Shown: piece after piece, positions 7,876 through 55,500 of the stretch
Layout of the letters: every line of letters starts with the position of its first letter
How positions within the stretch are numbered: the first letter of the stretch is position 1
Source of the DNA: Flavobacterium bizetiae
GTDB lineage: Bacteria > Bacteroidota > Bacteroidia > Flavobacteriales > Flavobacteriaceae
Direction of reading: 5' to 3'
Assembly: GCF_902804475.1 (NCBI RefSeq)
Contig: NZ_CADCSU010000097.1
Span: forward strand, 1-64,000
DNA: 64,000 bases
The notes under the pieces: generated by a model
The model's input: only the letters and a program-made list of their open reading frames with translations
Told to the model about the DNA's origin: nothing
Database searches by the model: none
Position numbers and translations under genes: made by a program

Positions 7876-7936
7876 AAGACCAATCGTAGAAAAACAGTTA
7901 TAAATTTATCACTAATAATTCATAACTCATAACAAT

Positions 7937-8299
7937 TTAATAAGGGCAATGTCTGCAGTCATTTCCGCAGCAAGAACCTCTTTTTAAGTGAAACCAGGTT
8001 TTAAAAACATAATTTCCATTTTCGATATAATAATCAATTCCTTCAATTAGTTTTTCTTGTTTGGGTAAAGTTATGGCTTTGTTTTTAAGCGCTTTTTGAG
8101 GCGTAATCGTTTCTACATAAGCATCAATTTTGTCTTCGCAAGCTTCTTTAAAGCAAACCGGACAAAGGCAATCGCCACCATCAGAAAGGTTAAAAATAGG
8201 AGGGAAATCATTGCACCAACATTTGCTTTCTGCTGAAATATCTCCACAAGTAAAAGAAGATTCACAGCTGGAACAAACTTTTGTTTTTATGCTATTCAT
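7937..8299 (-). CDS. Cysteine-rich CWC protein with DUF5522-like C-terminus
   Basis: This 120-residue soluble protein has two Cys-rich parts. The N-terminus (CSSCESSFTCG...CWC...CLCPVCF) matches the CWC type, and the C-terminus ends GSCCGNDCRHCPY, the DUF5522 signature. The Cys spacing suggests metal binding, probably zinc or an Fe-S cluster. Function is unknown. It lies between cobU and the divergent btuF gene, separated from cobU by copy A of a dispersed repeat, so a link to B12 metabolism is only positional. Confidence 0.85.
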   Translation of the reverse strand: MNSIKTKVCSSCESSFTCGDISAESKCWCNDFPPIFNLSDGGDCLCPVCFKEACEDKIDAYVETITPQKALKNKAITLPKQEKLIEGIDYYIENGNYVFKTWFHLKRGSCCGNDCRHCPY

Positions 8300-8365
8300 A
8301 GGTTAAATGTAGTATTTATTGCTTTTTGTAAGAATAAAGATAAATAAAAAAAATAGAAATTGCCT

Positions 8366-8373
8366 TACCTTTG
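8366..8373 (+). promoter_or_regulatory. Possible -7 promoter box for btuFCD
   Basis: TACCTTTG matches TAnnTTTG about 100 bp before the btuF start in the divergent intergenic region. No clear -33 box and no riboswitch signature was seen between this site and the gene. Confidence 0.4.
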
Positions 8374-8470
8374 TCACTATCAAAATGCAAATTACGAAAT
8401 GGTCATGATTTAAGTTAAACGTCAAAATCCAGAAATCAAAAACTATTCCTTAAAATAAGATAACCTATTT

Positions 8471-9613
8471 ATGAAAAAATTATTCCCTAAATTAATTTTT
8501 ATTTTACCTCTTTTTCTTCTTGTTGGATGTAAAAAAAATGAGACTGAAACCGTTGCAAAAGATACTAATGCAAAAAATAGTATCGAATATGCATCCGGGC
8601 TTTCTATTGTTAAACACGAAGGATATTCAATAGTAACCGTAACAGAACCATGGCCAAATGCCAATGCAAAATTTACTTATGTCCTAAAAGAAAAAGAAGC
8701 TAAAGTTCCGGACAGTTTACAAAAATACACCACCATAAAAGTACCTTTAGAATCTGTTGTGGTAACTTCAACAACCAATATTCCGTTTCTTGAAATGTTA
8801 GAAATAGAAGATAAATTGGTTGGTTTTCCTCATACTGATTACGTTTCATCAGAAAAAACAAGAGCTTTAATCGACAAAGGCTCCGTTAAAAATGTAGGTG
8901 AAAACGAAAAATTAAATATCGAGCAATTAATCGAATTATCTCCGGATCTGATTGTAACTTTTGGTGTAGACAACAACAATCCAACATTGGATAATTTAAA
9001 GAAAAGCGGACTAAACGTACTGATCCAAGCCGATTGGATGGAGCAATCTCCACTAGGAAAAGCAGAATGGATCAAACTTTACGGAGCTTTATTTGGTAAA
9101 GAAGACAAAGCCAAAGAATTGTTTGATAAAATTGTATTAAGCTACGATCAGGCCAAAAAATTAGTGGCAGATAAACCTGCGACTTCAACTGTTTTATATG
9201 GCTCTATGTATGAAGATGTTTGGTATGTAGCCAAAGGAAATAGTTGGGTTGCCCAGTTTATGAAAGATGCTCAGGCCAATTATTTATGGTCAGACTTAAA
9301 AGGAACCGGAAGCGAAGGTTTGTCTTTTGAAAAAGTATTGGTAAAAGCCAAAACGGCCAATTTCTGGATTGCTTCAGGATCATTCAAAACGTTAGAAGAA
9401 TTTGGAAAAACGAATCCGCATTACAGTCAATTTGATGCTTTTAAAAATAAAACCGTTTATACTTTCGAAGGTAAAGTAGGAGCAACTGGTGGAACTGTTT
9501 ATTATGAATTAGCACCAAGTCGCCCGGATTTAGTACTAAAAGATTATATCAAGATTTTTCATCCTGACTTATTGCCAAGCTATGAATTTACTTTTGCATC
9601 AAAATTAAATTAA
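8471..9613 (+). CDS. btuF: Periplasmic corrinoid/siderophore-type ABC substrate-binding lipoprotein
   Basis: This 380-residue protein has a lipoprotein signal (FLLVGCKK, Cys about residue 20) and a class III periplasmic binding domain from about residue 95 to 370. Recognisable segments are NIPFLEMLE, NIEQLIELSPDLIV and WYVAKGNSWVAQF. It is the first gene of an importer with FecCD-type permease and ATPase genes. The adjoining B12 genes favour cobalamin as the substrate (BtuF), although heme or siderophores use the same family. It is longer than E. coli BtuF because of an N-terminal extension. Confidence 0.8.
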   Translation: MKKLFPKLIFILPLFLLVGCKKNETETVAKDTNAKNSIEYASGLSIVKHEGYSIVTVTEPWPNANAKFTYVLKEKEAKVPDSLQKYTTIKVPLESVVVTSTTNIPFLEMLEIEDKLVGFPHTDYVSSEKTRALIDKGSVKNVGENEKLNIEQLIELSPDLIVTFGVDNNNPTLDNLKKSGLNVLIQADWMEQSPLGKAEWIKLYGALFGKEDKAKELFDKIVLSYDQAKKLVADKPATSTVLYGSMYEDVWYVAKGNSWVAQFMKDAQANYLWSDLKGTGSEGLSFEKVLVKAKTANFWIASGSFKTLEEFGKTNPHYSQFDAFKNKTVYTFEGKVGATGGTVYYELAPSRPDLVLKDYIKIFHPDLLPSYEFTFASKLN

Positions 9614-9618
9614 GCGTA

Positions 9619-10647
9619 TTGATCAATAAAAAGCGAAATATAATCCTGTTTTCGGTACTTGCCCTGGCACTTTTATTTATGTTTTTTCTGGACATTAGTT
9701 TGGGGTCAATCACCATTCCGTTCAAAGAAGTATATACGAGTTTAACGGGCGGTCATGCCAGCAAATCGACCTGGGAATATATCATCATCAACTATCGTTT
9801 GCCAAAGGCGATTACAGCAATGTTAGTAGGCGTGGGATTATCCATAAGCGGACTATTAATGCAAACCTTATTTCGAAATCCGTTGGCGGGACCAGATGTT
9901 TTAGGATTAAGTTCCGGAGCAATTTTGGCCGTAGCCATTGTAATTTTAGGAGCGGGCTTTTTGCCGACATTTCTAAACGTAATTTTATTATCGCCATACG
10001 GAATTGTATTTGCTTCAACATTAGGAAGTGTTTTGGTTTTAATGCTGGTTTTGTTAGTAGCACAACGCTTGCGAAATACGATGGCAATTTTAATTGTGGG
10101 ACTTATGTTTGGTAGTTTTACCAGCGCGATTGTTGGGGTTTTAACTTATTTTAGTTCGGCAGAACAATTGCAAAAATTTACCTTTTGGTCATTAGGAAGC
10201 TTAGGAAATCTCTCCTGGACATCTATTTCGATTTTGGCAGTTTGTGTTAGTTTTGGTTTGCTTTTAAGTGCTAGTAGCATCAAACCTTTAAATGCATTGC
10301 TTTTAGGCGAAAACTATGCTAAAAGCATGGGATTGAATTATAAAAAAGCAAGATTGGTTATCATATTTGCTACTAGTATTTTAGCCGGCAGCGTTACTGC
10401 TTTTGCCGGTCCAATTGCTTTTATTGGTTTAGCTGTTCCGCATATTGCAAAACTAACATTTCAAACCAGCAATCACGCGGTTTTATATTGGAGTACTTTT
10501 TTTTACGGAGGTATTATTATGCTTTTTTGTGATATTGCCTCGCAATTACCGGGATTAGATACCACATTGCCAATTAATGCCATAACATCAATAATTGGGG
10601 CGCCAGTTGTTGTATATTTATTAATGCGAAAAAGAAATTTTCAGTAA
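9619..10647 (+). CDS. btuC: FecCD/BtuC-family ABC transporter permease
   Basis: This 342-residue polytopic protein of the BtuC/FecCD family has about ten hydrophobic helices, the RLPKAITAMLVG and GLLMQTLFRNPLAGPDVLG signatures, and a GPIAFIGLAVPHI segment that contacts the ATPase. The start is TTG at 9619, five bases after the btuF stop; later ATGs would delete the first helix. It should form the inner-membrane channel for the corrinoid bound by btuF. The gene is followed by a GxxExxY insert instead of directly by the ATPase gene. Confidence 0.87.
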   Translation: MINKKRNIILFSVLALALLFMFFLDISLGSITIPFKEVYTSLTGGHASKSTWEYIIINYRLPKAITAMLVGVGLSISGLLMQTLFRNPLAGPDVLGLSSGAILAVAIVILGAGFLPTFLNVILLSPYGIVFASTLGSVLVLMLVLLVAQRLRNTMAILIVGLMFGSFTSAIVGVLTYFSSAEQLQKFTFWSLGSLGNLSWTSISILAVCVSFGLLLSASSIKPLNALLLGENYAKSMGLNYKKARLVIIFATSILAGSVTAFAGPIAFIGLAVPHIAKLTFQTSNHAVLYWSTFFYGGIIMLFCDIASQLPGLDTTLPINAITSIIGAPVVVYLLMRKRNFQ

Positions 10648-10672
10648 AATATTAAGAAAATTATTACTTTTA

Positions 10673-10696
10673 TTTTTTAAACACATAGAAACATAG
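10673..10696 (+). repeat. Left arm of 24-bp inverted repeat around the GxxExxY gene
   Basis: Six T residues and then AAACACATAGAAACATAG; positions 10673-10696 are the exact reverse complement of 11199-11222. This arm lies 25 bp after the btuC stop. Confidence 0.9.
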
Positions 10697-10720
10697 TTTT
10701 TATTTCAATTAAAAAAATTA

Positions 10721-11134
10721 ATGATTACGCAAAAGTATTTAGACGAATTAACTTATGAAGTTATTGGAGCTTCTATAGAAGTACATAAAATAATTGGAAA
10801 AGGATTGCTTGAAAATGTATATCACCAATGCCTGAAAGAAGAACTTTCACAAAGAAAATTAAATTTTTTCACAGAGATGAAAGTGCCGATAACATATAAA
10901 GGACAAGAATTGATTACAGATTTTAGATGTGATTTATTTGTTGAAAATTGTCTGGTTGTTGAATTAAAAACCGTTTCTGAAATAAATCCGGTTCATAAAG
11001 CACAGCTCTTAACTTATATGAAGCTTTTAAAAGCTCCAAAAGGAATTATAATTAATTTTAATTGTTTTAATATATTTAAAGAAGGTCAAAAAACATTTGT
11101 AAATGAATATTTCAACTTATTCCCAAAGTTTTAA
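10721..11134 (+). CDS. GxxExxY protein (PD-(D/E)XK nuclease-like)
   Basis: This 137-residue protein carries the name-giving motif GLLENVY at residues 28-34. A PD-(D/E)XK-like core has Asp71 in FRCDLFV and ELK at 81-83. Proteins of this family (PF13366) are widespread in Bacteroidetes and of unknown role, and the fold predicts a nuclease. The gene splits the btuC-btuD pair and is enclosed by a perfect 24-bp inverted repeat, so it probably arrived as a cassette. The surrounding transporter genes remain intact and co-oriented, so it may be read through as part of their transcript. Confidence 0.88.
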   Translation: MITQKYLDELTYEVIGASIEVHKIIGKGLLENVYHQCLKEELSQRKLNFFTEMKVPITYKGQELITDFRCDLFVENCLVVELKTVSEINPVHKAQLLTYMKLLKAPKGIIINFNCFNIFKEGQKTFVNEYFNLFPKF

Positions 11135-11198
11135 ATAATTTGAACTATGTGTAATTTACGAGTAAATTTAAAATATAACTCTTACGAAAAAGAAAATC

Positions 11199-11222
11199 CT
11201 ATGTTTCTATGTGTTTAAAAAA
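11199..11222 (+). repeat. Right arm of 24-bp inverted repeat around the GxxExxY gene
   Basis: CTATGTTTCTATGTGTTT plus six A residues, an exact reverse complement of the arm at 10673-10696. It ends 9 bp before the btuD ATG, so the inserted unit now supplies most of the btuD upstream sequence. Confidence 0.9.
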
Positions 11223-11231
11223 CAAACCACA

Positions 11232-12008
11232 ATGAGCACCATCCTAAAAACTTCAAATTTAAGCATTGGCTATAAGTCCAAGAAAGAAACTGTGACTATT
11301 GCCGAGAATCTTAATTTGAACTTATCTGCAGGGAAACTCATTTCATTAATAGGAGCAAACGGAATTGGGAAATCGACTTTATTGCGAACCATTACAGGAA
11401 TTCAGGAACCATTATCAGGAAATGTTTTTCTGAATGAAAAAAGCATCAACACCTACAATCCTTTAGATTTAGCACAAAATCTAAGTTTGGTCTTAACCGA
11501 AAAACTACCACCAAGTAATCTTTCCGTTTTTGAGTTAGTGGCACTAGGCCGCCAGCCTTACACCAACTGGATAGGCACTTTGACCCAAACCGACATCGAG
11601 AAAGTTCAGGAAGCACTACAGCTGACTCAAATCGAACATTTAGCACAGAAAAAACATTTCGAAATTAGCGACGGACAATTGCAAAAAGTATTAATCGCCA
11701 GAGCTTTGGCACAAGATACCCCGCTTATTATTTTGGATGAACCCACAACCCATCTCGATTTACTGCACAAAGTTTCACTGTTTAAATTACTGAAAAAACT
11801 CACACAAGAAACTCAAAAGTGTATTTTATTCTCGACACATGATATCGATTTGGCGATTCAGTTAAGCGACGAAATGATCATCATGACACCGGAAGTAATT
11901 GTTCAGGATGAACCTTGTCATCTTATCTCAAACGGAAGTTTTGCAAATTTGTTCAAAGACGAACACATCGCTTTTGATGCGGAGAAAGGCAAGTTTATAA
12001 TAACTTAA
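11232..12008 (+). CDS. btuD: ABC transporter ATPase of the corrinoid/siderophore importer
   Basis: This 258-residue ATPase of the FecE/BtuD class has Walker A GANGIGKST at residues 41-49, a signature motif ISDGQLQKVLIARAL (SDGQ in place of the usual SGGQ) and Walker B LIILDEPTTHLD. I chose the ATG at 11232; an upstream GTG at 11211 lies within the inverted repeat arm and adds only seven residues. It should power the btuF/btuC importer. The last 4 bp overlap the converging gene on the other strand. Confidence 0.88.
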   Translation: MSTILKTSNLSIGYKSKKETVTIAENLNLNLSAGKLISLIGANGIGKSTLLRTITGIQEPLSGNVFLNEKSINTYNPLDLAQNLSLVLTEKLPPSNLSVFELVALGRQPYTNWIGTLTQTDIEKVQEALQLTQIEHLAQKKHFEISDGQLQKVLIARALAQDTPLIILDEPTTHLDLLHKVSLFKLLKKLTQETQKCILFSTHDIDLAIQLSDEMIIMTPEVIVQDEPCHLISNGSFANLFKDEHIAFDAEKGKFIIT

Positions 12009-23644: not shown

Positions 23645-24556
23645 TTAATTCAGACAACTTATAAGAGCGCTTTCTAAATCAGTAAATTGAAAATCAAATC
23701 CCATCTTTTGTATTTTTTCAGATGAAACTCTCTGGCCTTCTAAAACGGCTACGCTCATTTCGCCTAAAACTATTTTAAGGACAAATGCAGGCGCTTTAGG
23801 AAGCCAGATTTTGTATCCGAATAATTGAGCCAGAATTCTGGATAAACTGGCGTTTGTAGTATTGTCTGTCACGCAGGAATTATAAGGCCCCGACATTTTC
23901 TCGTCTACAATGGCTTTTAAATAAATATTACATAAATCCTCGATATGAATCCACGGAACATATTGTTTTCCTGTGCCTAAAATAGAGCCAAAACCAGCTT
24001 TAAAACTCGGAACAACTTTTTTCAGGAAACCTTCGTCTTTACCCAAAACAATTCCGGTTCTCACTTTTACGGTTCGAATACCTAGCGTGTTGATTTGATC
24101 GACCGCTTTTTCCCATTCCTGGCAAGTAATGCCCAAAAAGTCATTGGCAGGCGTCGTATTTTCGGTACATATATTTTGGTTGGTATAGGCGCCATAAATA
24201 CCCACGGCCGATGCTGAGATAAAAGCATCCAGCTTTTTATTGGTTTTCTTGAGCACCGAAAAAATAAGATCAATAGGTTGTGTGCGGCTTTCGAGAATTT
24301 CTTTTTTACGTTTTTTTGTCCATCGTTTTTCTACAATTCCTTCGCCGGACAGATGAATAATGTAATCTGCTTTCAATATTGCTTCCTCATCAATATAATT
24401 ACGGGTAAGATCCCATTTGTAGTAGGTGATCGAAGAAGTGTTTTTTCTATCAGAACGGCTTAAAATCGATACCTCAAAACCATTAGAAATAAGCAAATCG
24501 GTTAAGTGTTTGCCTATAAAGCCCGTTCCTCCGGTTAATAAAATATTTTTTGCCAT
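23645..24556 (-). CDS. TIGR01777 family NAD-dependent epimerase-like protein
   Basis: This 303-residue extended SDR has LTGGTGFIGKHL at residues 7-18, LSGEGIVEKRWTKKRKKEI (the family-specific segment) near 70-88, and SASAVGIYG with a C-terminal DUF1731-like tail (LGEMSVAVLEGQRVSSEKI). The family often accompanies photolyase and carotenoid genes. It lies at the edge of the photoprotection cluster, facing away from the TetR-like gene. Confidence 0.9.
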   Translation of the reverse strand: MAKNILLTGGTGFIGKHLTDLLISNGFEVSILSRSDRKNTSSITYYKWDLTRNYIDEEAILKADYIIHLSGEGIVEKRWTKKRKKEILESRTQPIDLIFSVLKKTNKKLDAFISASAVGIYGAYTNQNICTENTTPANDFLGITCQEWEKAVDQINTLGIRTVKVRTGIVLGKDEGFLKKVVPSFKAGFGSILGTGKQYVPWIHIEDLCNIYLKAIVDEKMSGPYNSCVTDNTTNASLSRILAQLFGYKIWLPKAPAFVLKIVLGEMSVAVLEGQRVSSEKIQKMGFDFQFTDLESALISCLN

Positions 24557-24653
24557 GATAGTTTATAATTTATTTAACAGCTTCTTCTGTTTAACGATAA
24601 GTAAAGATAATTAAACATTGATTACCTTTAAGGCAAATTAAAAAAATAATAAG

Positions 24654-25316
24654 ATGGAAGCTAAAAAGAAGACAATCAGTAAGGAAGACATCGTTTCAAT
24701 ATACATGGAAGAAGTTCTGGAAAAAGGACAAAAGCCAAAATCAGTTTATCATTTCGTCAAAGAAAATAATTTTACCGAAGCCGAATTTTATGCTTTTTTC
24801 GGAACCTTAGAAGGTTTGGAAAAAGAAATATTCAGATTATTTTTTGCCAACACAATCGATTTGTTAAACAAAAACTCAGAATATCTGGAATATGATATGA
24901 AAAACAAAATGCTGAGTTTTTATTTCACCTTTTTCGAAATTCTAACGGCCAACAGAAGTTATGTTTTACAATCTTTAAAATTCGACCGAAATCCGTTAAA
25001 AAACTTAGTGCAGCTTACTACACTTCGAAATAGTTTTAAAGAATACGTTTCAGAAATCCTGACCGATGATTACAGATTAGAACAGGAAAAATTGCAAAAG
25101 TTTCAGGAAAAAGGAATTCAGGAATCAGCCTGGCTGCAATTAATGCTCACTATAAAATTTTGGGTCGATGATGAATCAGCGGCTTTTGAGAAAACAGATA
25201 TTTTTATCGAAAAATCGGTTAATGCTTCATTTGAGTTAATGAATGTTGCGCCGCTCAATCACCTTATCGATTTGAGCAAATTCTTGTTCAAAGAAAAAAT
25301 ATACAGCAAACAATGA
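24654..25316 (+). CDS. TetR-like regulator
   Basis: This 220-residue, mostly helical protein has an N-terminal 50 residues (SKEDIVSIYMEEVLEKGQKP...FVKENNFTEAEFYAFFGTLE) resembling a TetR helix-turn-helix, although weakly. The remainder fits the TetR ligand domain associated with ABC1 genes. The stop overlaps the start of the ABC1-family gene by 4 bp, so the two are coupled. It may act as a partner or local regulator; the ligand is unknown. Confidence 0.8.
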   Translation: MEAKKKTISKEDIVSIYMEEVLEKGQKPKSVYHFVKENNFTEAEFYAFFGTLEGLEKEIFRLFFANTIDLLNKNSEYLEYDMKNKMLSFYFTFFEILTANRSYVLQSLKFDRNPLKNLVQLTTLRNSFKEYVSEILTDDYRLEQEKLQKFQEKGIQESAWLQLMLTIKFWVDDESAAFEKTDIFIEKSVNASFELMNVAPLNHLIDLSKFLFKEKIYSKQ

Positions 25317-26617
25317 AAACAATCGATTATATCCCAACCTCAAAAATAGAAAGAGCCAGTAAGTTGGTACAAACCGGTGCAAAAATAGGGGTAAACTATG
25401 TAAAGCATTATGCCGAAAAAATAGTAAATCCTGATTTAACACGCGATAAATTGAATGAAAACAACGCTGAGGATATTTACGACGGACTAAAAAGTCTGAA
25501 AGGCAGCGCGCTAAAAGTAGCCCAAATGCTAAGCATGGACAAAAACTTTTTGCCGCAGGCGTATGTTGAGAAATTTTCGTTATCGCAATTTTCTGTTCCG
25601 CCACTTTCAGCGCCATTGGTTTTAAAAACATTCAAGACTAATTTTGGTAAAACGCCTTATGAAATCTTCGACGAGTTCAATGCCAATTCTGTAAATGCGG
25701 CCAGTATTGGTCAGGTACATTTGGCAGTAAAAGACGGCAAAAAGTTAGCCGTTAAAATTCAGTATCCCGGAGTGGCCAATAGTATTTCGTCAGATTTGGC
25801 TTTGGTAAAACCCATCGCGATCAGAATGTTTAATCTTCAGGGAAAAGACTCTGATAAATATTTTAAAGAAGTCGAAGATAAACTGATCGAAGAAACCAAT
25901 TATTTACTTGAGTTGCAGCAAAGTCAGGAAGTTGTCGAAGCTTGCAGCAAAATCGAAAACATACTTTTTCCGCGTTATTATCCTGAGTTTTCTTCAGAGA
26001 AAATCATCACAATGGATTGGATGACTGGAATTCATCTTTCTGAATTCACGGCAATAAATACAGATAAAGCAGTTGGTGATCAGTTAGGTCAGGCACTTTG
26101 GGATTTTTACATGTATCAAATTCATGTTCTTAGAAAAGTTCATGCCGATCCGCATCCCGGAAACTTTTTGGTCGACGATCAAAACAATCTGATTGCACTA
26201 GATTTTGGTTGTATGAAAAAAATTCCCGAAGAGTTTTATGTGCCGTATTTTGAGTTAATCAATAAAAACGTAATCACAGATAAAGCACTTTTCAATCAGA
26301 AGTTGTTCGAATTAGAAATTCTTCGTCCGGATGATTCACCGTCAGAGATTGAATATTTTACTGAGATGTTTCATGATTTGCTATCACTTTTTACGAAACC
26401 ATTTCAAAACGAAACTTTCGATTTTGCCGATGAGACTTTCTTTGACAGCATTGCCAAATTAGGCGAACGTTTCTCCAACGATACCAACCTTAAAAAAATG
26501 AACGGAAATCGTGGTTCTAAACACTTTATTTACATGAACCGTACTTTCTTTGGTTTGTATAATTTAATGTTTGATTTGAAAGCGAAGATTGTCGTTTCGA
26601 ACTATATAAAGTATTAG
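25313..26617 (+). CDS. ABC1/AarF/COQ8-family atypical kinase
   Basis: This 434-residue UbiB-type protein-kinase-like fold carries ALKVAQMLSMD where the family has KxGQ; the Gly is replaced by Ala. It also has the Ala-rich loop NAASIGQVHLA, AVKIQYPGV with the ATP-contacting Lys, HADPHPGNFLV as catalytic loop and ALDFG. These resemble mitochondrial COQ8 (ADCK3) more than E. coli UbiB. Bacteroidetes use menaquinone, so a ubiquinone role is unlikely. It is cotranscribed with the TetR-like gene. Confidence 0.9.
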   Translation: MKTIDYIPTSKIERASKLVQTGAKIGVNYVKHYAEKIVNPDLTRDKLNENNAEDIYDGLKSLKGSALKVAQMLSMDKNFLPQAYVEKFSLSQFSVPPLSAPLVLKTFKTNFGKTPYEIFDEFNANSVNAASIGQVHLAVKDGKKLAVKIQYPGVANSISSDLALVKPIAIRMFNLQGKDSDKYFKEVEDKLIEETNYLLELQQSQEVVEACSKIENILFPRYYPEFSSEKIITMDWMTGIHLSEFTAINTDKAVGDQLGQALWDFYMYQIHVLRKVHADPHPGNFLVDDQNNLIALDFGCMKKIPEEFYVPYFELINKNVITDKALFNQKLFELEILRPDDSPSEIEYFTEMFHDLLSLFTKPFQNETFDFADETFFDSIAKLGERFSNDTNLKKMNGNRGSKHFIYMNRTFFGLYNLMFDLKAKIVVSNYIKY

Positions 26618-26663
26618 GAGTTAAAACAGCACTCCGATGATAAAAAAATTAAACATTCAATAA

Positions 26664-27347
26664 ATGAGAAATATTCTAATTATCGGAGGAAGTAAAGGCA
26701 TCGGAAGTGCTGTTTTATTGCAACAACTCGAAACCAATCGGGTATATAATATCAGTAGGAGTGCGCCGGAACTTACGCATCCTAATCTTACTCATTTTGG
26801 TTTAGATGTATTAAAGGATGAACTTCCTGACATAGTCGAAATAGATTCTTTGGTCTATTGTCCAGGCTCTATTACCCTAAAACCCATCTCGAATTTAAGT
26901 GTTGATGATTTTAGAAATGATTTCGAAATCAATGTCATTGGCGCTGTAAAAGCAATTCAGAAATATTTGGCTGTTTTAAAAAAAGGTGATGAACCTTCAA
27001 TCGTTTTATTCAGTACCGTTGCCGTAAAATTAGGAATGCCTTTTCATGCCAGTATTGCAACAGCAAAAGCGGGTGTCGAAGGTTTGACAAAATCACTCGG
27101 GGCTGAATTGGCTTCTTTAGTTCGTGTCAATGCCATTGCGCCTACTATAACCGAGACATCTCTTTCGGCTTCGATTTTACGAAACGATCGCATGAAAGAA
27201 AACATGATCGACCGCCATCCTCTAAAAAGCTATTTAAAACCTCAGGAAGTTGCTAATATGGTAGATTTTCTGATTTCTGAAAAAGCGAATTCTATTTCAG
27301 GTCAAATTTTTGAAATGGATTATGGATTGGTGACTTTTAAAATCTAG
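26664..27347 (+). CDS. SDR-like protein lacking the catalytic Tyr
   Basis: This 227-residue classical SDR fold has the cofactor loop GGSKGIGSA (residues 8-16), YCPGS in place of NNAG (65-69), and Ser117. The YxxxK motif reads IATAK (131-135), so Lys135 remains but the catalytic Tyr is Ile. The rest (GVEGLTKSLGAELASLVRV, NAIAPT) is well conserved. Related SDR-like proteins are found beside photolyase genes. It may bind NAD(P) without acting as a normal dehydrogenase. Neighbour spacing suggests one operon with the genes before and after it. Confidence 0.85.
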   Translation: MRNILIIGGSKGIGSAVLLQQLETNRVYNISRSAPELTHPNLTHFGLDVLKDELPDIVEIDSLVYCPGSITLKPISNLSVDDFRNDFEINVIGAVKAIQKYLAVLKKGDEPSIVLFSTVAVKLGMPFHASIATAKAGVEGLTKSLGAELASLVRVNAIAPTITETSLSASILRNDRMKENMIDRHPLKSYLKPQEVANMVDFLISEKANSISGQIFEMDYGLVTFKI

Positions 27348-27352
27348 ACACT

Positions 27353-28771
27353 ATGAAGATCCTCTTAACAGGTGCAACAGGTTACATTGGCAAACGTCTT
27401 TTGCCCATTTTAGTAGCGCAAGGACATCAGGTTATTTGTTGTGTAAGAGATAAAAATAGATTTTATATACCAGAAGATTTTCAGCAAAAAGTGCAGGTTA
27501 TCGAAGTTGATTTTTTAGAAAAAGAAACTTTAGAGGCAATTCCTTCAGATATTGATGCCGCTTTTTACCTTATTCATTCCATGTCCGGTTCTGATACCAA
27601 TTATGATGAACTCGAAAGTATTTCGGCGACTAATTTTATCGAAAGAATAAATGAGACAGAAGCACAGCAAATCCTCTATTTAAGCGGAATCGTAAATGAT
27701 AAATCACTTTCTAAACATTTGGCGTCCCGCAAAAATGTAGAAAGTATTTTAGCGAAATCAAAAGTAGAGCTTACCACTTTAAGGGCCGGAATCATTGTAG
27801 GATCGGGGAGTGCATCTTTCGAAATTATTCGGGATCTGGTCAATAAACTTCCGGTAATGATTACGCCTAAATGGCTCAATACAAAATGCCAGCCTATTGC
27901 GATAAACGATGTTTTAGAGTTTTTGTCAAAATCACTTTTAAATCCCGTTACTTACAATGAGAGTTTTGATATTGGCGGCCCGGACATCCTTACTTACAAA
28001 GAAATGTTATTGTCTTTCGCCGAAGCAAAAAAACTCAAACGGTACATTTTTACCATTCCGATCATGACACCAAAATTGTCGTCGTATTGGCTTTATTTTG
28101 TTACTTCGACTTCGTATAAACTGGCGTCAGCTTTAGTGAGCAGCATGAAAGTCGAAGTTATTTGTAACGATCATCGCATCAACGAACTTTTAAGTGTAAA
28201 ACCAATGACTTACAAGCAAGCACTTTCGAGGGCATTGATAAAAGTAGAAGAAGATAAAGTAGCTTCAAGTTGGAAAGATTCTTTGATTAGCGGACGTTTT
28301 ACTCGCAACATTTCAAAACATTTAAAAGTTCCAAAAAAAGATTGCTACATCGATCGCAGAAAAAAAGAAATTGAAAACCGCGAATATACTATTGATCGAA
28401 TTTGGTCTATTGGTGGTGAAACCGGTTGGTATTATGGCGATTGGCTATGGAGTTTACGTGGCTTTATCGATAAACTATTCGGCGGAGTAGGTTCTCGCCG
28501 TGGCCGAACCAATAAACATGATATACATTCCGGAGATGCGTTAGACTTTTGGCGTGTTTTGTACGCTAACAAGCAAGAAGGGAAATTAATTCTATACGCC
28601 GAAATGAAATTACCCGGTGAAGCCTGGTTAGAATTCAAGATCATTCATAATACGTTATATCAGGCAGCAACCTTTAAGCCCAAAGGTATTTTAGGAAAAT
28701 TGTACTGGTACTCCGTTTTGCCGTTTCATGGTTTTATCTTCAACGGAATGCTTAATAAATTGATTAAGTAG
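27353..28771 (+). CDS. NAD(P)-binding SDR-like protein with DUF2867 C-terminal domain
   Basis: This 472-residue protein has an N-terminal extended-SDR domain (LLTGATGYIGKRLLPIL, residues 3-19; about 1-290) and a C-terminal DUF2867-type domain from about 320 to 472. The latter contains RIWSIGGETGWYYGDWLW, GDALDFWRVLYA and MKLPGEAWLEFKI. It starts 6 bp after the SDR-like gene. The reaction is unknown; the genomic setting suggests stress or lipid-related chemistry. Confidence 0.88.
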   Translation: MKILLTGATGYIGKRLLPILVAQGHQVICCVRDKNRFYIPEDFQQKVQVIEVDFLEKETLEAIPSDIDAAFYLIHSMSGSDTNYDELESISATNFIERINETEAQQILYLSGIVNDKSLSKHLASRKNVESILAKSKVELTTLRAGIIVGSGSASFEIIRDLVNKLPVMITPKWLNTKCQPIAINDVLEFLSKSLLNPVTYNESFDIGGPDILTYKEMLLSFAEAKKLKRYIFTIPIMTPKLSSYWLYFVTSTSYKLASALVSSMKVEVICNDHRINELLSVKPMTYKQALSRALIKVEEDKVASSWKDSLISGRFTRNISKHLKVPKKDCYIDRRKKEIENREYTIDRIWSIGGETGWYYGDWLWSLRGFIDKLFGGVGSRRGRTNKHDIHSGDALDFWRVLYANKQEGKLILYAEMKLPGEAWLEFKIIHNTLYQAATFKPKGILGKLYWYSVLPFHGFIFNGMLNKLIK

Positions 28772-29091: not shown

Positions 29092-30387
29092 TTATTTAAT
29101 TATTCCCGCCTTATAAGTTGCAATTGCGCGATCTCTTGCAAAAGCGTGATCGACCATTGGTTCGTTATATCCCAAATCAAATTCAGGAATCCATTTGCGG
29201 ATGTAGATTGCTTTTTCGTCGAATTTCTTTTGTTGAATTTCGGGATTAAAAACCCTGAAATAGGGCGCGGCATCACAACCTGTTCCTGCTGCCCATTGCC
29301 AGTTTCCTACGTTTGATGCTAATTCGAAATCTAGTAATTTCTCGGCAAAATAAGCTTCGCCCCATTGCCAGTTGATCAATAAATGTTTGCACAAGAAACT
29401 TGCAACAACCATACGCACACGATTGTGCATGTATCCGGTTTCGTTAAGTTGGCGCATTCCGGCGTCGACCATTGGGTAACCGGTAGTTCCGGAACACCAG
29501 CGCTTAAAATCATCTTCGTTATTACGCCATTGAATTCCGTCGTAAGCTGACTTAAAATTGTGATTGACACAATTAGGAAAGCTAAACAGGATCTGGATAA
29601 AAAACTCTCTCCAGATTAATTCGCTTAAAAAAGTTTGGTTTTTCTTATTCGCCCAATTGACTAATTTTCGAATACTCACAGTCCCAAAACGTAAATGTGG
29701 CGAAAGATAGGATGTGCCATCTAAAGCAGGAAAGTCGCGTATTTCTTTATAATTGCCAATTTGAGTTAAGTTGTGCGGAAGCACTTTTATGGTACTTCTT
29801 TCAAAACCAATTTGAGGCAATTCAGGAAACTTGAAATTGTTTTTGGCAAAATTTACAAGCACAGGTTTTGTATCATATTCCAGAGCCTGACCTGAAAGAT
29901 GGTATTTTTCGAGCCATTTGTTTTTGTATGGCGTATAAATCGTGTACGGAAGTCCATCAGCTTTTGTGATTTCTTTTTCTTCGAAGATTACATGATCTTT
30001 GAATGAAGTGACTTTGATATTATTTTGTTGTAATAAGTCGACAATGGCCATGTCGCGTTTTATGGCGTATGGTTCATAATCTTTATTAAAGAAAACGGTT
30101 TGAATGTCGAATTCTTCTGTGAGTGATTTCCAAACGTCGAAAGTTTTTCCTTTTTTGATTAGGATGGAAGAATCGATTGTATTTAATTCTTCGTTTATTT
30201 TTTGAAGTGAATCGTAGATAAAACTAACACGTGCATCATCTTTAGGAAGATTCTCTAAGATATCTTCGTCGAAAATAAATAACGGAATTACCGGAAAATC
30301 AGATTGCAGGGCATTGAATAACCCGATATTATCATCAAGACGTAAATCACGTCGAAACCAGAAAAAGGTTGCTTTTTGTTTTGTCAT
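29092..30387 (-). CDS. phr: Cryptochrome/DNA photolyase family protein
   Basis: This 431-residue protein has an N-terminal antenna domain with FFWFRRDLRLDDN and a C-terminal FAD-binding domain. The latter carries TGYPMVDAGMRQLNETGYMHNRVRMVVASFL and the NWQWAAGTGCDAAPYFRVFNP block, which are diagnostic of class I CPD photolyases and relatives. It should repair UV-induced pyrimidine dimers with blue light. I use the ATG at 30387; a GTG start 24 bp upstream lies inside an inverted repeat. It belongs to the minus-strand carotenoid operon region. Confidence 0.92.
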   Translation of the reverse strand: MTKQKATFFWFRRDLRLDDNIGLFNALQSDFPVIPLFIFDEDILENLPKDDARVSFIYDSLQKINEELNTIDSSILIKKGKTFDVWKSLTEEFDIQTVFFNKDYEPYAIKRDMAIVDLLQQNNIKVTSFKDHVIFEEKEITKADGLPYTIYTPYKNKWLEKYHLSGQALEYDTKPVLVNFAKNNFKFPELPQIGFERSTIKVLPHNLTQIGNYKEIRDFPALDGTSYLSPHLRFGTVSIRKLVNWANKKNQTFLSELIWREFFIQILFSFPNCVNHNFKSAYDGIQWRNNEDDFKRWCSGTTGYPMVDAGMRQLNETGYMHNRVRMVVASFLCKHLLINWQWGEAYFAEKLLDFELASNVGNWQWAAGTGCDAAPYFRVFNPEIQQKKFDEKAIYIRKWIPEFDLGYNEPMVDHAFARDRAIATYKAGIIK

Positions 30388-30406
30388 TATAATGGATTCT
30401 GTTTTT

Positions 30407-30466
30407 GCCACAGATTAAAAGATTTTTAAAGGATTTCTTAATCTGTTTAATCTTTTAATCTGTGGC
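30407..30466. repeat. 18-bp perfect inverted repeat, CCACAGATTAAAAGATT family
   Basis: GCCACAGATTAAAAGATT (30407-30424) is exactly complemented by 30449-30466, with a 24-base loop. It occupies the spacer between the SRPBCC gene and photolyase. A degenerate second copy lies at 52460-52516. Confidence 0.85.
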
Positions 30467-30481: not shown

Positions 30482-30946
30482 TTATGCTTTTGAATTGAAT
30501 ATTTCTTCGATTTTTTTGTGACGATATTCGAAAATGGATTTTAGTTTATTTTTGACCATTATTTTATTGGCGAGTTGTCCTAAGATACCAAAGGGTAAAG
30601 CATAATGTACCACGTCGGTCATTTTTGTACCGTTTTCTGTGGATTCAAAAAAATGTTTGTGATGCCATAGAGCATAGGGACCAAAACGTTGTTCGTCTAC
30701 AAAATATTGGTTTTCTGAAGAAACGGTTATAATCGTCATCCAGTTGATAGTAATGCCCAAAAGTGGTTTTAAAGTATAGGTAATCACTTGTCCGGGATAC
30801 ATGCGTTTGCCATCGAAATCCTGAATAACGAAACTCATATCGTCGGGTGTGATCGTTTTAAGGTTTTGCGGACTCGAGAAAAAGTCCCAACATTTTTCGA
30901 TACTCGCGTTTAAGTGTTGTACGGTTTCTAGTTTATATACTTTCAT
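30482..30946 (-). CDS. SRPBCC-family lipid-binding-like protein
   Basis: This 154-residue protein starts with VQHLNASIEKCWDFFSSPQNLKTITP, the START/SRPBCC entry, and ends with the long C-terminal helix expected for the fold. A hydrophobic ligand is likely. The family members in such clusters are often named cell-division inhibitor-like. It lies between crtZ and photolyase. No enzymatic residues can be named. Confidence 0.85.
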   Translation of the reverse strand: MKVYKLETVQHLNASIEKCWDFFSSPQNLKTITPDDMSFVIQDFDGKRMYPGQVITYTLKPLLGITINWMTIITVSSENQYFVDEQRFGPYALWHHKHFFESTENGTKMTDVVHYALPFGILGQLANKIMVKNKLKSIFEYRHKKIEEIFNSKA

Positions 30947-31069: not shown

Positions 31070-31510
31070 CTACATTTTATAATATTTAAAGGGCACGAAT
31101 AACATTCCGAAACATTCGCCGTGTTCTTTTCCTAAATGTTTGTGGTGAATTTTGTGCGCTTTTCGTAAACCAATCAGGTATTTATTTTTGGTGTTTTTGA
31201 ACCATTTAAAGCGTTGGTGAATTAAAACGTCGTGAATTAAAAAGTAACAAGCGCCGTAAGTCGTGACTCCGCAAGCGATGAAAAACAAATAATTGAATCC
31301 GCCCTGAACGCCAAAATAAAAAAGCACAATACTTGGAATGGCAAATATGACGAAGAAAATGTCGTTGCGCTCAAATGTATGTTCGTATTTGGGTTGGTGG
31401 TGATCTGCGTGAAAATACCACATAAGTCCGTGCATGATGTATTTGTGCGTAAGCCAGGTTACACATTCCATGAAGAGAAAAACGCCTAAAAAGATTAAAA
31501 AAGAAATCAT
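31070..31510 (-). CDS. crtZ: Beta-carotene hydroxylase (fatty acid hydroxylase superfamily)
   Basis: This 146-residue integral membrane di-iron protein has four His clusters: HKYIMH (about 22-27), HADHH (33-37... family HX2HH), HDVLIH (about 93-98) and HKIHHKH (about 119-125). The clusters and length fit CrtZ. It adds 3-hydroxyl groups to beta-carotene rings to make zeaxanthin. It follows crtB and crtI in order; a lycopene cyclase gene is not in this cluster, so the pathway must be completed elsewhere. Confidence 0.9.
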   Translation of the reverse strand: MISFLIFLGVFLFMECVTWLTHKYIMHGLMWYFHADHHQPKYEHTFERNDIFFVIFAIPSIVLFYFGVQGGFNYLFFIACGVTTYGACYFLIHDVLIHQRFKWFKNTKNKYLIGLRKAHKIHHKHLGKEHGECFGMLFVPFKYYKM

Positions 31511-31637: not shown

Positions 31638-32477
31638 CTAAACCAACTTTAACTTGTAAGTTACAAAAGATTGCGCTAAAAGCCCGGCTTTGGTGTAATT
31701 TGAAACTCTGATTCTTGAACTTCCAATTTCGTAATACGGGGTGTTTTTTAGTTTTTTTAGCAGTTTTTTGTAATACACGTATGCAGTGTAAACGCCAAAT
31801 TGTGCTTCGATAGGTAATTTTACAATTCCCTGATAAGCAACTCTAAAATCTTCTTCGATCTCGTTGATGATAGTGGTTTTGGCATTTTCGTCGAAAGAAT
31901 TAAGATCTACTCCCGGAAAATAATTTCGGTTTAAAACCAAATTATCGTCTTTGAGATCTCTCAGGAAATTGACTTTCTGAAAGGCCGATCCTAATCGCAT
32001 AGCTTCGTTTTTGAGTTGCTCGTATTTGTGCTCGTTTCCTTTTACGAAAACTTTGAGACACATTAAACCCACAACATCGGCAGAACCGTAAATATAATCT
32101 TCGTATTCGGTTTGAGAGTTGTATGTAGATTTGATGAGGTCTAGTTTCATGCTTTTTAGAAATGCCTGAACAAGATCGTCTGTAATGTTGTATTGCTTTA
32201 CAGTATGCTGAAACGAATTGAGAATAGGATTTAGACTAATGCCATATTCTATCGATTTATAATATTCTTTCTCGAAATCATTGATGAGATTTTCTTTGTC
32301 GTAATCCTGAAATGAATCGACAATTTCGTCAGCAAAACGAACGAATCCGTAAATACTGTAAATCGCTTCGCGAATGCTTGGAGAAAGCATTTTTACCGCT
32401 AGCGAAAAAGAGGTGCTGTAGTTTTGGGTGACCAATTTGCTACATTTGAAAGAAACGGTGTCGAATAGTGATTTCAT
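31638..32477 (-). CDS. crtB: Phytoene synthase
   Basis: This 279-residue squalene/phytoene synthase fold has the first Asp-rich region FVRFADEIVDSF (about residues 45-56), YIYGSADVVGLMCLKVF and the second Asp region LGSAFQKVNFLRDLKDD. It condenses two geranylgeranyl diphosphates to phytoene at the inner membrane. It starts 3 bp after crtI, so the two are cotranscribed and probably coupled. Confidence 0.94.
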   Translation of the reverse strand: MKSLFDTVSFKCSKLVTQNYSTSFSLAVKMLSPSIREAIYSIYGFVRFADEIVDSFQDYDKENLINDFEKEYYKSIEYGISLNPILNSFQHTVKQYNITDDLVQAFLKSMKLDLIKSTYNSQTEYEDYIYGSADVVGLMCLKVFVKGNEHKYEQLKNEAMRLGSAFQKVNFLRDLKDDNLVLNRNYFPGVDLNSFDENAKTTIINEIEEDFRVAYQGIVKLPIEAQFGVYTAYVYYKKLLKKLKNTPYYEIGSSRIRVSNYTKAGLLAQSFVTYKLKLV

Positions 32478-32480: not shown

Positions 32481-33947
32481 TTAAGATCTAAAAGATTTTT
32501 GAATTAACTCGGCTACTAGTTTTCCTGAAATTAAAGCAGGCGGAACACCTGGGCCAGGAACTGTTAATTGTCCTGTGAAATATAAATTACGCACTTTTTT
32601 ACTTTTCAGTTTTGGTCGTAAAAAAGCCGTTTGCAATAAGGTATTGGCCATTCCGTAAGCGTTTCCTTTGTAAGCGTTATAATCGGTTACAAAGTCATTT
32701 TTGCAGAATGATCTCTTAAAGATAATATTATTTTTAATCTCTTGTTTTGTAAGTTGCTCAAAACGAGTAATGATTTTTTCGAAATATTCTTCTCTAAGTG
32801 CTTCGCTGTCATTTATTCCGGGTGCTAAAGGAATGAGGAAAAATCCGCTTTCCTGACCTTCGGGCGCTGCAGTGTGATCTGTTTTTGATGGAAAGTTGGC
32901 GTAAAACAAAGGTGCGTCAGGCCACTTTGGTTCATCATAAATATCTGCTGCGTGTTGATTAAAATCGACATCAAAAAATAAAGCGTGATGCGAAATGTTC
33001 TCCATTTTTTTATTGAACCCAACAAAGAATAGGAGTGAAGAGGGCGCTAAAACACGACTCTCCCAATATTTCTCTGAATAGGCACGATGTTCTGTGTCTA
33101 GTAAAGTTTCGGTATGATGATAATCGGCTCCGCTTAAAATAATATCGGCTTGTATTGTTTTTCCGTTAATGACAATTGCAGTCGCGGTTTTGTTTTCTAC
33201 TATTATTTTTTCGATAGATGAATTAGTCTCAATCTTGACTCCAAGTTCGATAGCTAGTTTTTCGATGCCGCGAACAACGTCGAACATTCCGGTTTTGGGA
33301 TGCCAGGTTCCTAGGCCAAAATCGGCATAATTCATGAAATTATAAAACGAAGGTGTTTTGGTAGGTTTTGCGCCCAAAAACAAAACGGGAAATTCCAGAA
33401 TTTGTATTAGTCTTTCGTTTTTGAATTTCTTGCGAATATCTGTACTCACAGTACTAAAAAACTGATCGAGTTTTTTGGTCGTTTCGAGCGTAATTAATTC
33501 TAATGGAGAAACTCCGGGGCGGTACACCAAATCTTTAATGGCAATATCATAATTGCTTTTGGCTTGATTGATGAAAGTTTCGAGTTCGTGACCACTTCCT
33601 TTTTCTATAGTTTCAAAAGTGGTTTTTATTTCTTCGAGATTATCGTAGATCGAAATAAAATCATCTACTCCAAAATATACCCTGTACGCAGGATTTAGTT
33701 TTATAAGCTCGTAATAGTCGGTTGTTTTTTTATCAAAATCCTGAAAAAAACGTTCGAAAACATCTGGCATCCAATACCAGCTTGGTCCCATATCGAAGGT
33801 AAAACCATTTGCTTTAAACTGCCGCGCTCTGCCGCCAATGGTTTCGTTTTTTTCATAAATAGTTACTTTGTTTCCTTGCTGTGACAAGTAACATGAAGCG
33901 GCTAATGCAGAGAAGCCTGATCCTATTATTGCGATTGTTTTTTTCAT
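32481..33947 (-). CDS. crtI: Phytoene desaturase (CrtI type)
   Basis: This 488-residue FAD enzyme has an N-terminal dinucleotide fold IIGSGFSALAASCYL (residues 7-21), GGRARQFKANGFTFDMGPSWYW, and the C-terminal LYFTGQLTVPGPGVPPALISGK motif typical of CrtI. It converts phytoene to lycopene by stepwise desaturation. It lies 38 bp downstream of the CarH-like MerR gene, so the two are probably one transcript. Confidence 0.94.
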   Translation of the reverse strand: MKKTIAIIGSGFSALAASCYLSQQGNKVTIYEKNETIGGRARQFKANGFTFDMGPSWYWMPDVFERFFQDFDKKTTDYYELIKLNPAYRVYFGVDDFISIYDNLEEIKTTFETIEKGSGHELETFINQAKSNYDIAIKDLVYRPGVSPLELITLETTKKLDQFFSTVSTDIRKKFKNERLIQILEFPVLFLGAKPTKTPSFYNFMNYADFGLGTWHPKTGMFDVVRGIEKLAIELGVKIETNSSIEKIIVENKTATAIVINGKTIQADIILSGADYHHTETLLDTEHRAYSEKYWESRVLAPSSLLFFVGFNKKMENISHHALFFDVDFNQHAADIYDEPKWPDAPLFYANFPSKTDHTAAPEGQESGFFLIPLAPGINDSEALREEYFEKIITRFEQLTKQEIKNNIIFKRSFCKNDFVTDYNAYKGNAYGMANTLLQTAFLRPKLKSKKVRNLYFTGQLTVPGPGVPPALISGKLVAELIQKSFRS

Positions 33948-33985
33948 TTGTTTAACAAATGTACAAAAACTTTAAACAAAATGAA

Positions 33986-34885
33986 TTATAGCATGCTAAT
34001 TGTTTCTTCCATAGAATCGAAAATTCGTATTCTTTCGGGTAGCATTTTCTGGTCAATGTTTTCGACCATATTTCCCATAAGCCAAATTTCGTTGTTTTTT
34101 TGAAGTAGTTTTTGCCCCATAGATTTTACATACTGATTGATAACACTACGATCTGGCTGAACCGTCATGAAAGAGACAAAGGTAATGTTCTCGAAATGTT
34201 TGGTTAAATCCTGAAGGTTTTCGATGGGCATACTTTCGCCAAGATAGATGGTTTTATAGCCGTGCGATAAAATTTCATATTGCAGATATAATAAACCTAT
34301 CTGGTGAATTTCATTAAGCGGTAACGAAAGCACAAAGATTCTATTGGTTTTGCTTGGTCTTAATATTTGAAGGCTTTCTGTATAGATTAATATTTTTTGC
34401 TTGATCAAATGACTCATGAAATGTTCATTTGCAGGCGTTATGGTTTCGGATTGCCATAATAATCCCAGCTCTTTTAATAGAGGAAGGAAATGATCTTTGA
34501 AAACTTCTTTGAATGATTTTTCAGAAATTAACCAATCGAATGTATTGAAGAATATTTCCTGGTCAAAATTCATCATCGCCATCTTGAATGAAGTTATGGC
34601 GTAATTCTGAGAATTTTTCTTGGAAATGATTTCACGTACTAATTGCGGAATCTTTTCTTCAGGATATGTTGCAATTTTAGAAATTTTATATCCGTATTCG
34701 TGTAATAAAGTAATGTTTAAAAGCTTTTGTAAATTTTGAAGATTATAGAGCCTAATATTGGTATCAGTACGCATTGGCTCTAGGATATTGTATCTTTTCT
34801 CCCAGATACGAATGGTGTGTGCTTTTATTCCTGATAAGTTTTCGAGGTCTTTTATGCTGAAAACAGTCTTAATATTGTTTATCAT
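33986..34885 (-). CDS. MerR regulator with B12-binding domain, CarH/LitR-like
   Basis: This 299-residue protein has an N-terminal MerR helix-turn-helix (FSIKDLENLSGIKAHTIRIWEKRY, about 9-32). It then has a helical bundle with the CarH-type motif W144-x9-E154-H155 (WQSETITPANEH) and a Rossmann-like domain with E192-I-H194-Q-I-G197, matching the lower cobalamin ligand motif (D/E)xHxxG. In CarH, these residues bind adenosylcobalamin; light breaks the Co-C bond and releases DNA. The residue next to W144 is Gln, where CarH has a second His. It lies directly upstream of crtI, so light-controlled carotenoid genes are a reasonable inference. Cobalamin binding is not shown. Confidence 0.88.
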   Translation of the reverse strand: MINNIKTVFSIKDLENLSGIKAHTIRIWEKRYNILEPMRTDTNIRLYNLQNLQKLLNITLLHEYGYKISKIATYPEEKIPQLVREIISKKNSQNYAITSFKMAMMNFDQEIFFNTFDWLISEKSFKEVFKDHFLPLLKELGLLWQSETITPANEHFMSHLIKQKILIYTESLQILRPSKTNRIFVLSLPLNEIHQIGLLYLQYEILSHGYKTIYLGESMPIENLQDLTKHFENITFVSFMTVQPDRSVINQYVKSMGQKLLQKNNEIWLMGNMVENIDQKMLPERIRIFDSMEETISML

Positions 34886-34903
34886 TACTGGCTATTTGGT
34901 GAA

Positions 34904-34949
34904 CAAAAATAAAATAAAATCCGAGATTTGTCTTAAAATCTTCTTAAGA
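34904..34949 (-). promoter_or_regulatory. Tentative carH-crt promoter and dyad operator
   Basis: Read on the minus strand, TATTTTTG (34904-34911) matches TAnnTTTG, 18 bp before the start of the MerR gene. A dyad TCTTAA-N7-TTAAGA (34931-34949) lies where the -33 box would be, as expected for an autoregulating MerR protein. No TTG was seen at -33. This is suggestive only. Confidence 0.35.
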
Positions 34950-34957: not shown

Positions 34958-35920
34958 TTACTCGAATTTGATGTTGGAGAATTTATTTAATTTGTCTAAA
35001 TGCAAAATTGTTTTAGAGCTGTCGTTACTTCGGTTGTACATGGTTTCGAATTTGGCTCCGTAAATAATTTCATTAAAAGTATACGATGTTCTGGCGGCAA
35101 CAGTATTGCTGTACATATTATCAAATGTGGTTATGAATACTAATATTTCTCCTTGTATTTTCTCGAAATCTTCTTTGGTAAAATTATATAAAGGGCTGTC
35201 TTCGGTAATAGGATGTACGAGAGTCCAGCTTAACGAAAGTGCATTTATTCGATCTAACTCGAGTTCTAAGCTGTAAAATTTATTGGTTTGTACGCCATTT
35301 TCTTCTATACTCATTCCTAATGTCATTTTTGCTGTGGCATCTGTAAAGTTGGTATTTTTAAAAGGTACAAGACGTATCATTAATCCTTTGTTTTCTCCGT
35401 AAGGGCCAATTAAGGCATTGTCTGCAAATTTTAAAAAGGCCGTTGGTTTGCTGAATCTTCCAAAGAATAAACCTGTTGCGATGGCAAAACTTAATAATCC
35501 AATTAAAGCTTCGGCAGCTGATAGTGCGCTGGTTAAAAATCCGGTTGGACTAATATGCCCGTAACCAACGGTGGTAAAGGTTTGCGCGCTGAAAAAATAG
35601 GCCTGACCAAATTGAGTTAAAACGCTTTGAGATTGTTCTATTCCATCGAGATGTTCAATACCAATGGCGTAATAAATAACGGCAAATATAAAATTGAGTA
35701 CAATGTAAAAAATAAACAAAATCGACATGAATTTCCAATTAGGCAAGTCGATCATAGTATGGTACCAACTTATGCGACGAAAGAAGTGCATACCTCTTTT
35801 CTCGATATTAGGAGTTCCGTCTTTGTTTACAAATCTTCCTCCGTAACTGTTTGCATTAACACCAAAACCGGAATTTTTATCAGTTTGTGCTTTTTGGTTT
35901 ATCTTTTTTAAGAGTGCCAT
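34958..35920 (-). CDS. Inward-rectifier-type potassium channel (KirBac-like)
   Basis: This 320-residue protein has two membrane helices (about 64-86 and 130-155) flanking a pore loop with the selectivity filter TVGYG at 117-121. The cytoplasmic C-terminal domain is rich in beta strands (GPYGENKGLMIRLV, SLELELDRINALSLSWTLVHPI), which is diagnostic of Kir channels. It likely sits in the inner membrane as a tetramer. It ends 72 bp before the MerR gene. Confidence 0.92.
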   Translation of the reverse strand: MALLKKINQKAQTDKNSGFGVNANSYGGRFVNKDGTPNIEKRGMHFFRRISWYHTMIDLPNWKFMSILFIFYIVLNFIFAVIYYAIGIEHLDGIEQSQSVLTQFGQAYFFSAQTFTTVGYGHISPTGFLTSALSAAEALIGLLSFAIATGLFFGRFSKPTAFLKFADNALIGPYGENKGLMIRLVPFKNTNFTDATAKMTLGMSIEENGVQTNKFYSLELELDRINALSLSWTLVHPITEDSPLYNFTKEDFEKIQGEILVFITTFDNMYSNTVAARTSYTFNEIIYGAKFETMYNRSNDSSKTILHLDKLNKFSNIKFE

Positions 35921-55433: not shown

Positions 55434-55500
55434 AATATGTTGATTTGTTTAATCGTTTATTCGGTTAAACGATTAAACAAATAATCGATTAAACTTTACT

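Follow-up and report, generated by a model that had tools for sequence, protein, structure and literature searches.

A candidate cobalamin-dependent light repressor with glutamine in place of the upper histidine, and a recurrent dyad at its putative target genes, in Flavobacterium bizetiae and its relatives

A MerR-type regulator gene located immediately upstream of the carotenoid genes of Flavobacterium bizetiae raises the question of whether pigment synthesis in this bacterium is switched by light via a B12 photoreceptor, and which DNA sites such a switch would use. The window analyzed here (the whole 64,000-nucleotide stretch, positions 1 to 64,000 of contig NZ_CADCSU010000097.1) contains the open reading frame 33986-34885, from which the original prediction derived a CarH/LitR-like regulator. 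This frame is real: it encodes 299 amino acids on the minus strand (no strand had been named), and the plus strand carries many stops over the same interval. The product matches Pfam MerR_1 (residues 9-74, 51.2 bits) and B12-binding_2 (residues 99-165, 32 bits), both over the Pfam cut-off; the closest orthologue in the genome contigs searched, from Flavobacterium sp. SLB02, is 99% identical, and that of F. johnsoniae (L073) is 95% identical. CarH of Thermus thermophilus (PDB 5C8D, 5C8E, 5C8F, 3WHP) is its best sequence match among solved structures (E ~4e-14), whereas CtMerR of Chloracidobacterium thermophilum (PDB 8JBS, 8JBT) matches weakly (E 0.006). An AlphaFold model built from a 28-row alignment (27 of 80 orthologue loci used) has a mean pLDDT of 74.9 and a pTM of 0.62, with residues 144-149 below 50, and a Foldseek search with this model placed full-length CarH chains at all ranks from 1 to 12 and CtMerR from rank 26, at approximately 20% sequence identity between regulator and CarH in the fold alignment. 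The domains, the sequence match and the CarH-first fold match thus bear out the CarH/LitR-like identity. We consider it fairly probable that the protein is an adenosylcobalamin (AdoCbl)-dependent light sensor of this type, acting as a dark repressor that is released by light.

The regulator belongs in the broad MerR-cobalamin family, with its MerR domain joined to a B12-binding domain, CarH fold, W-x9-EH motif and linkage to carotenoid genes. It is not CarH proper, because it scores 72.8 bits with the NCBIfam CarH equivalog NF052513 (cut-off 400 bits), has no upper histidine ligand and is not associated with a direct-repeat operator. MliR was dropped as a characterised relative, since it has no effector domain according to the part of the source consulted (PMC9478572).

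Downstream, crtI begins 38 bp after the regulator gene, and the same-strand cluster extends through photolyase, as had been predicted. On the minus strand, it comprises crtI (32481-33947, phytoene desaturase family; NCBIfam TIGR02734 and NF058655 over cut-off), crtB (31638-32477, phytoene synthase family; Pfam SQS_PSY), two genes whose products we take to be a CrtZ-like hydroxylase (31070-31510) and an SRPBCC-like protein (30482-30946), neither with a Pfam or NCBIfam family over cut-off, and a gene for a DNA photolyase/cryptochrome family protein (29092-30411; Pfam DNA_photolyase and FAD_binding_7). The linkage is general, with crtI or crtB on the strand of the regulator in 217 of 243 orthologue loci. 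The gene just upstream of merR, likewise on the minus strand, encodes an inward-rectifier potassium channel (Kir type, 34958-35920) and is found there in some (but not all) relatives. A Flavo-1 RNA (Rfam RF01705, 61.5 bits) is located elsewhere in the window at 7798-7878.

Would this protein hold the chromophore? Both expected signatures, W144-x9-E154-H155 and E192-I-H194-Q-I-G197, are present as the original prediction had it. In CarH/LitR-like regulators, the W-x9-EH motif holds the adenosyl group, and the histidine of ExHxxG is the lower ligand. Across 220 distinct aligned homologue rows (query included, near-identical rows retained), W144 and E154 are invariant (220/220), 219 rows retain H194 and 214 retain H155; W144, E154, E192 and H194 are unchanged in all 193 distinct crt-linked rows. 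With the sequence and fold matches to CarH, this conservation exceeds chance. Beyond ExHxxG, the regulator has S238-F-M240 and a single G271 where SxT/V and GG are expected. The published light-response signature comprises GxxW, EH, GxxH and GxxxP (PMC11796333, sections consulted). Three of these four elements are matched (G141-x2-W144, E154-H155 and G216-x3-P220), and N191 replaces the glycine of GxxH, differing from T. thermophilus CarH. Asparagine is the usual residue in this column (175 of 220 rows, with glycine in 32), and the break of the signature may be taken as a point against a light-released repressor.

Residue 145, which aligns with His132 of CarH, is glutamine. The original prediction was correct in placing glutamine after W144, but the residue is no oddity of one protein: it is the norm of the clade, with Gln in 181 and His in 2 (L169 and L200) of the 193 distinct crtI/crtB-linked rows, while the 26 crt-unlinked rows are mixed (Gln in 6). 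By identity to the query, Gln145 is present in 95 of 95 rows above 80%, 62 of 63 at 50-80%, 23 of 24 at 38-50% and 7 of 37 below 38%. One of the two histidine rows (L169, genome G002) is a Flavobacterium orthologue with His145 (WHSHT) inside the Gln clade, a natural Q-to-H comparison.

Gln, Arg or Tyr at the place of His132 has already been published for other light-responsive cobalamin domains (PMC11796333, sections consulted), and what follows from losing this histidine differs between reports. The H132A variant of T. thermophilus CarH is described as mostly tetrameric under light, with no bis-His state, in a source that also mentions a contrary earlier report of its disassembly in light (PMC10442372, in the part consulted). 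In the consulted sections of PMC11796333, CtMerR, which like the regulator is a MerR-cobalamin protein devoid of the upper histidine (Arg in place of Gln), converts from tetramer to monomer in light, its Glu turning toward cobalt via water; the photocobilin SasPcob, a light-responsive cobalamin domain of other domain architecture and the sole characterised protein with Gln at this place, is a monomer without biliverdin, both in the dark and in light. The persisting tetramer of H132A and the monomeric state of SasPcob may both be counted against a light-released repressor; among the published patterns, that of CtMerR probably fits the regulator best. With Gln145 at the place of the upper-ligand histidine, residue 145 cannot provide a bis-His light state of the T. 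thermophilus type. More likely, His194 and Glu154 would hold an aquo/hydroxo-cobalamin in the light, the state that has been reported for CtMerR.

The B12 locus that had been proposed as a source of the chromophore is real. It spans 134-12008 and includes a cobalamin riboswitch (3100-3310, minus strand) with a TonB receptor, CobS, a nitroreductase/CobT fusion, CobU, a binding protein, a permease, an ATPase and a histidine phosphatase; this uptake and nucleotide-loop locus would supply the chromophore. The fusion (5371-7050) is one protein of 559 amino acids, in which a nitroreductase part, presumably BluB-like, is joined to a CobT-type phosphoribosyltransferase. The locus is interrupted at 4886-5326 and 10721-11134 by what we take to be REP-associated-transposase-like and GxxExxY-like genes, respectively. 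The same genome has a gene for an AdoCbl-forming adenosyltransferase, and only two B12-binding_2 matches, namely the regulator and an 895-aa open frame that, by its size, is probably MetH.

These data bear on an alternative in which the same regulator governs the same sites without being a light switch itself, either working independently of B12, like CarA, with a light-sensing partner, or reporting B12 supply only. CarA binds DNA whether or not B12 is present (PMC9304148, in the part consulted), and this alternative would accommodate the missing His132, the changed N191 and the changed second glycine of the Rossmann motif. Moreover, two complete genomes (G157 and G213, both 99% complete) have the orthologue and dyads of the kind described below, and PF01923 was not found in them, which would speak against a strict need for self-made AdoCbl unless a PF02572 enzyme or import supplies it. 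These two are among only four exceptions: among the Flavobacteriaceae genomes, the adenosyltransferase (PF01923) is present in 146 of the 150 that have a close orthologue vs. 38 of the 49 that do not. Given this, the unchanged adenosyl-holding and lower-ligand residues (W144, E154, H194) of all crt-linked rows, and the light-linked character of the target genes, we regard the alternative as unlikely, and retain the light-released repressor as the preferred reading.

Which sites, then, would the regulator use? The original prediction contained neither a dyad nor a wider regulon; both are new. The gap between merR and crtI holds an exact 32-bp dyad, TTGTTTAA-N16-TTAAACAA (33948-33979, minus strand), which we propose as the crtI operator. 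It adjoins the crtI start codon and encloses TACATTTG, a TAnnTTTG element that we assume to be the Bacteroidetes -7 promoter element; a shuffled window is expected to contain ~0.01 dyads at spacers of 10-22. Among 104 distinct merR-crtI junctions (strings of 32-90 nt from the merR stop codon through the crtI ATG), 87 score at least 14 of the 16 half-site positions and 57 are exact. Outside this set are 4 loci with junctions above 90 nt and 22 with junctions below 32 nt; 7 of these 22 (L164, L165, L179 and L194-L197) have a dyad of 13-16 further upstream of merR, and the other 15 have the promoter copy only, which counts against a light-released repressor. The spacer is nearly fixed: when lengths of 15-17 were allowed, 66 of 71 sites had 16 bp. 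Base counts show no general occurrence of a further half-site, in direct orientation, within the spacer.

MerR proteins of the classical kind are activators that bind inside the promoter. Together with the MerR DNA-binding domain and the promoter-like element enclosed by the dyad, this would suit a light- or B12-responsive activator in place of a repressor. The positions of the dyads, adjoining the crtI start codon and overlapping the start codon of the regulator itself, are suited to blocking, and the CarH proteins that have been characterised repress in the dark (PMC9304148, in the part consulted); activation is, in our estimate, distinctly unlikely, and repression is preferred.

The site over the regulator's own start is a degenerate dyad (34875-34906, minus strand, 13 of 16 half-site positions) that spans its promoter and start codon, and is proposed to serve autoregulation. 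In its general form, TAnnTTTG is fused to a half-site, followed after 16 bp by the second half-site, which is formed by the start codon and the following codons (ATGAACAA or ATAAACAA). At this fixed place, a score of at least 12 of 16 is reached in 121 of 168 relatives above 200 bits vs. 44 of 48600 random places, and in none of 27 more distant relatives below 200 bits (121 of 195 overall).

The dyad also follows the regulator across genomes. In Flavobacterium, 130 genomes with a close orthologue have 340 sites (mean 2.6; 8 genomes with none), and 19 genomes without one have 8 sites (mean 0.42; 12 with none), compared to 21 sites in all for a reversed-pattern control over the same 149 other genomes of the genus. 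In a set of 199 Flavobacteriaceae genomes from 198 genera, the exact dyad is present in 129 of 150 genomes with a close orthologue vs. 5 of 49 without one (7 sites for the reversed control); p values for such comparisons are guides only, the genomes being related. The five genomes with a dyad and without a close orthologue may be counted against the tie; two of them, G156 and G174, encode a distant CarH-like protein, and completeness is 73-87% in the remaining three. Also speaking against the tie, an exact dyad precedes the rhodopsin gene of genome G100 (completeness 89%), yet no orthologue was found in it.

Binding of the dyad by the regulator is what we infer from this pattern, and another factor travelling with the gene might bind the dyad instead, leaving the MerR-cobalamin protein in control of its own operon only, or of something else. 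Dyads in some genomes devoid of a close orthologue would agree with such a factor, as would the form of the known operators: published CarH sites are tandem 11-bp direct repeats nnnnTnnACAn with the half-site TnnACA (PMC9304148, in the part consulted), three of them in T. thermophilus. The half-site of the dyad does contain TnnACA, but inverted and 16 bp apart, an arrangement that may also be counted against a light-released repressor. Inverted repeats have been described at the operator of Myxococcus xanthus, where the CarA/CarH pair likewise controls crt genes (PMC9304148, in the part consulted); here, no gene pair is seen, the spacer is fixed at 16 bp, and the dyad recurs before many genes. 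In favor of the regulator itself are the shared TnnACA, the fixed dyad at its own start, the co-occurrence across the family, and the scarcity of other MerR_1 matches in the genome, where a single further one was found in a 112-aa open frame (by length, presumably nearer to MliR than the regulator is). A separate dyad-binding factor thus seems to us very unlikely, and the regulator remains the preferred candidate.

A further degenerate dyad in the window (24587-24618, 14 of 16 half-site positions) is a proposed operator in the promoter region shared by a divergent pair, the epimerase (DUF1731) gene (23645-24556, minus strand), itself a proposed regulon member, and tetR. Taken alone, this site would be no more than chance; the same pair bears an exact dyad in L285 and L323. 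The tetR side is a proposed regulon operon on the plus strand (24654-28771), composed of tetR (24654-25316), an ABC1-type kinase gene (25313-26617), an SDR gene (26664-27347) and an SDR-DUF2867 gene (27353-28771), and homologues of the latter two have upstream dyads elsewhere. A dyad likewise precedes the homologue of the SRPBCC-like gene in L260, L288 and L314. The two inexact dyads of the window rest on relatives, because inexact sites show no enrichment in the own genome; indeed, a search with up to 2 mismatches for a larger regulon in this genome was rejected, with 41 sites vs. 50 in the control. A seemingly perfect inverted repeat at 55445-55480 (TTGTTTAATCG...CGATTAAACAA, 20-bp spacer) was excluded as an operator, being part of a longer intergenic inverted repeat, probably an intrinsic terminator.

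Outside the window, the two other exact N16 sites of the genome head two paralogous operons, DUF2805(TIGR03643)-DUF2452-flavin reductase (families tested on one copy). A broader view is given by 71 distinct sites from 30 genomes (these two, loci from the genus scan and non-crtI sites among the matches listed), in which crtI is under-counted, as the listed crtI-junction sites were mostly left out. Adjoining genes are fasciclin (11), DUF2805 (9), rhodopsin/blh (8), crtI (6), flavin reductase (6), SDR (5), FolE (4), FAD monooxygenase (4), photolyase (3), SRPBCC-like (3), DUF2452 (3) and tetR/epimerase (3), plus a few others. Light-linked genes (crtI, rhodopsin/blh, photolyase, folE, DUF2805 operons) are fronted by 42 of the 71 sites, with DUF2805, DUF2452, flavin reductase and SRPBCC counted as light-linked by cluster context and recall. 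Addition of fasciclin, SDR and tetR/epimerase raises this to 60 of 71, a descriptive figure, the families having been defined partly from these sites. The three sites in genomes without the orthologue (L250, L251, L271) adjoin none of these target genes.

Rhodopsin genes, found in 47 of 150 genomes of the genus and not in the own genome, provide a further group of targets. Among 30 rhodopsin loci drawn from these 47 genomes, 25 have a dyad of at least 14 within 300 bp upstream (vs. 10 of 1500 shuffles); none was found by this measure at L379 (the rhodopsin gene of G002, the genome of the His145 orthologue), L385, L386, L401 and L405. Two dyads ~44 bp apart are frequent at rhodopsin loci, and the gene on the opposite side, where read, is a divergent blh.

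At 30 loci outside the genus (L346-L375), dyads front crtI, fasciclin, SRPBCC-like, flavin reductase, SDR-DUF2867 and tetR genes, as well as several genes with no evident light link. Fasciclin genes are the commonest dyad neighbours there, often divergent from another gene, which we take to be mnmA-like. In other families of the class, an ORF of 159-183 aa lies between merR and crtI in 12 of 13 loci examined (L207-L210, L212, L214, L216, L217, L219, L220, L225 and L230), with Pfam sigma-70 domains in all three tested. A dyad directly precedes this ORF in L208 and L210 (spacer 16) and L225 (spacer 17), so that a sigma factor may mediate the switch at those loci.

Taken together, these observations suggest the following scheme. 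In the dark, the AdoCbl-bound regulator would occupy the dyad and block transcription, both at crtI, whose promoter lies inside the dyad, and, through the degenerate copy, at its own promoter and start codon. Light would break the Co-C bond, the assembly would loosen and DNA would be released, turning on the carotenoid-photolyase operon, the DUF2805-flavin reductase operons and the tetR-SDR operon and, in relatives, also rhodopsin/blh, folE and fasciclin genes.

Sunlit waters commonly harbor flavobacteria. In the open-access literature (subscription papers and preprints being outside the scope of our search), we found no described transcriptional light switch for flavobacterial carotenoid or rhodopsin genes, and no description of the dyad regulon; a Chryseobacterium with light-induced carotenoids has been reported to be without a car or lit operon (PMC7064467, in the part consulted). 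The dyad provides a testable operator and a target list, and the clade without His132 is a natural test of whether CarH-type switching needs bis-His ligation. As a tentative generalization, to which we give somewhat less than an even chance, one His132-less B12 photorepressor and one dyad operator may constitute, in most Flavobacteriaceae, a master light switch for carotenoids, photolyases and, where present, rhodopsin phototrophy, with a light state formed via Gln145/Glu154 chemistry instead of bis-His ligation; B12 supply and light would then jointly decide when these functions are turned on.
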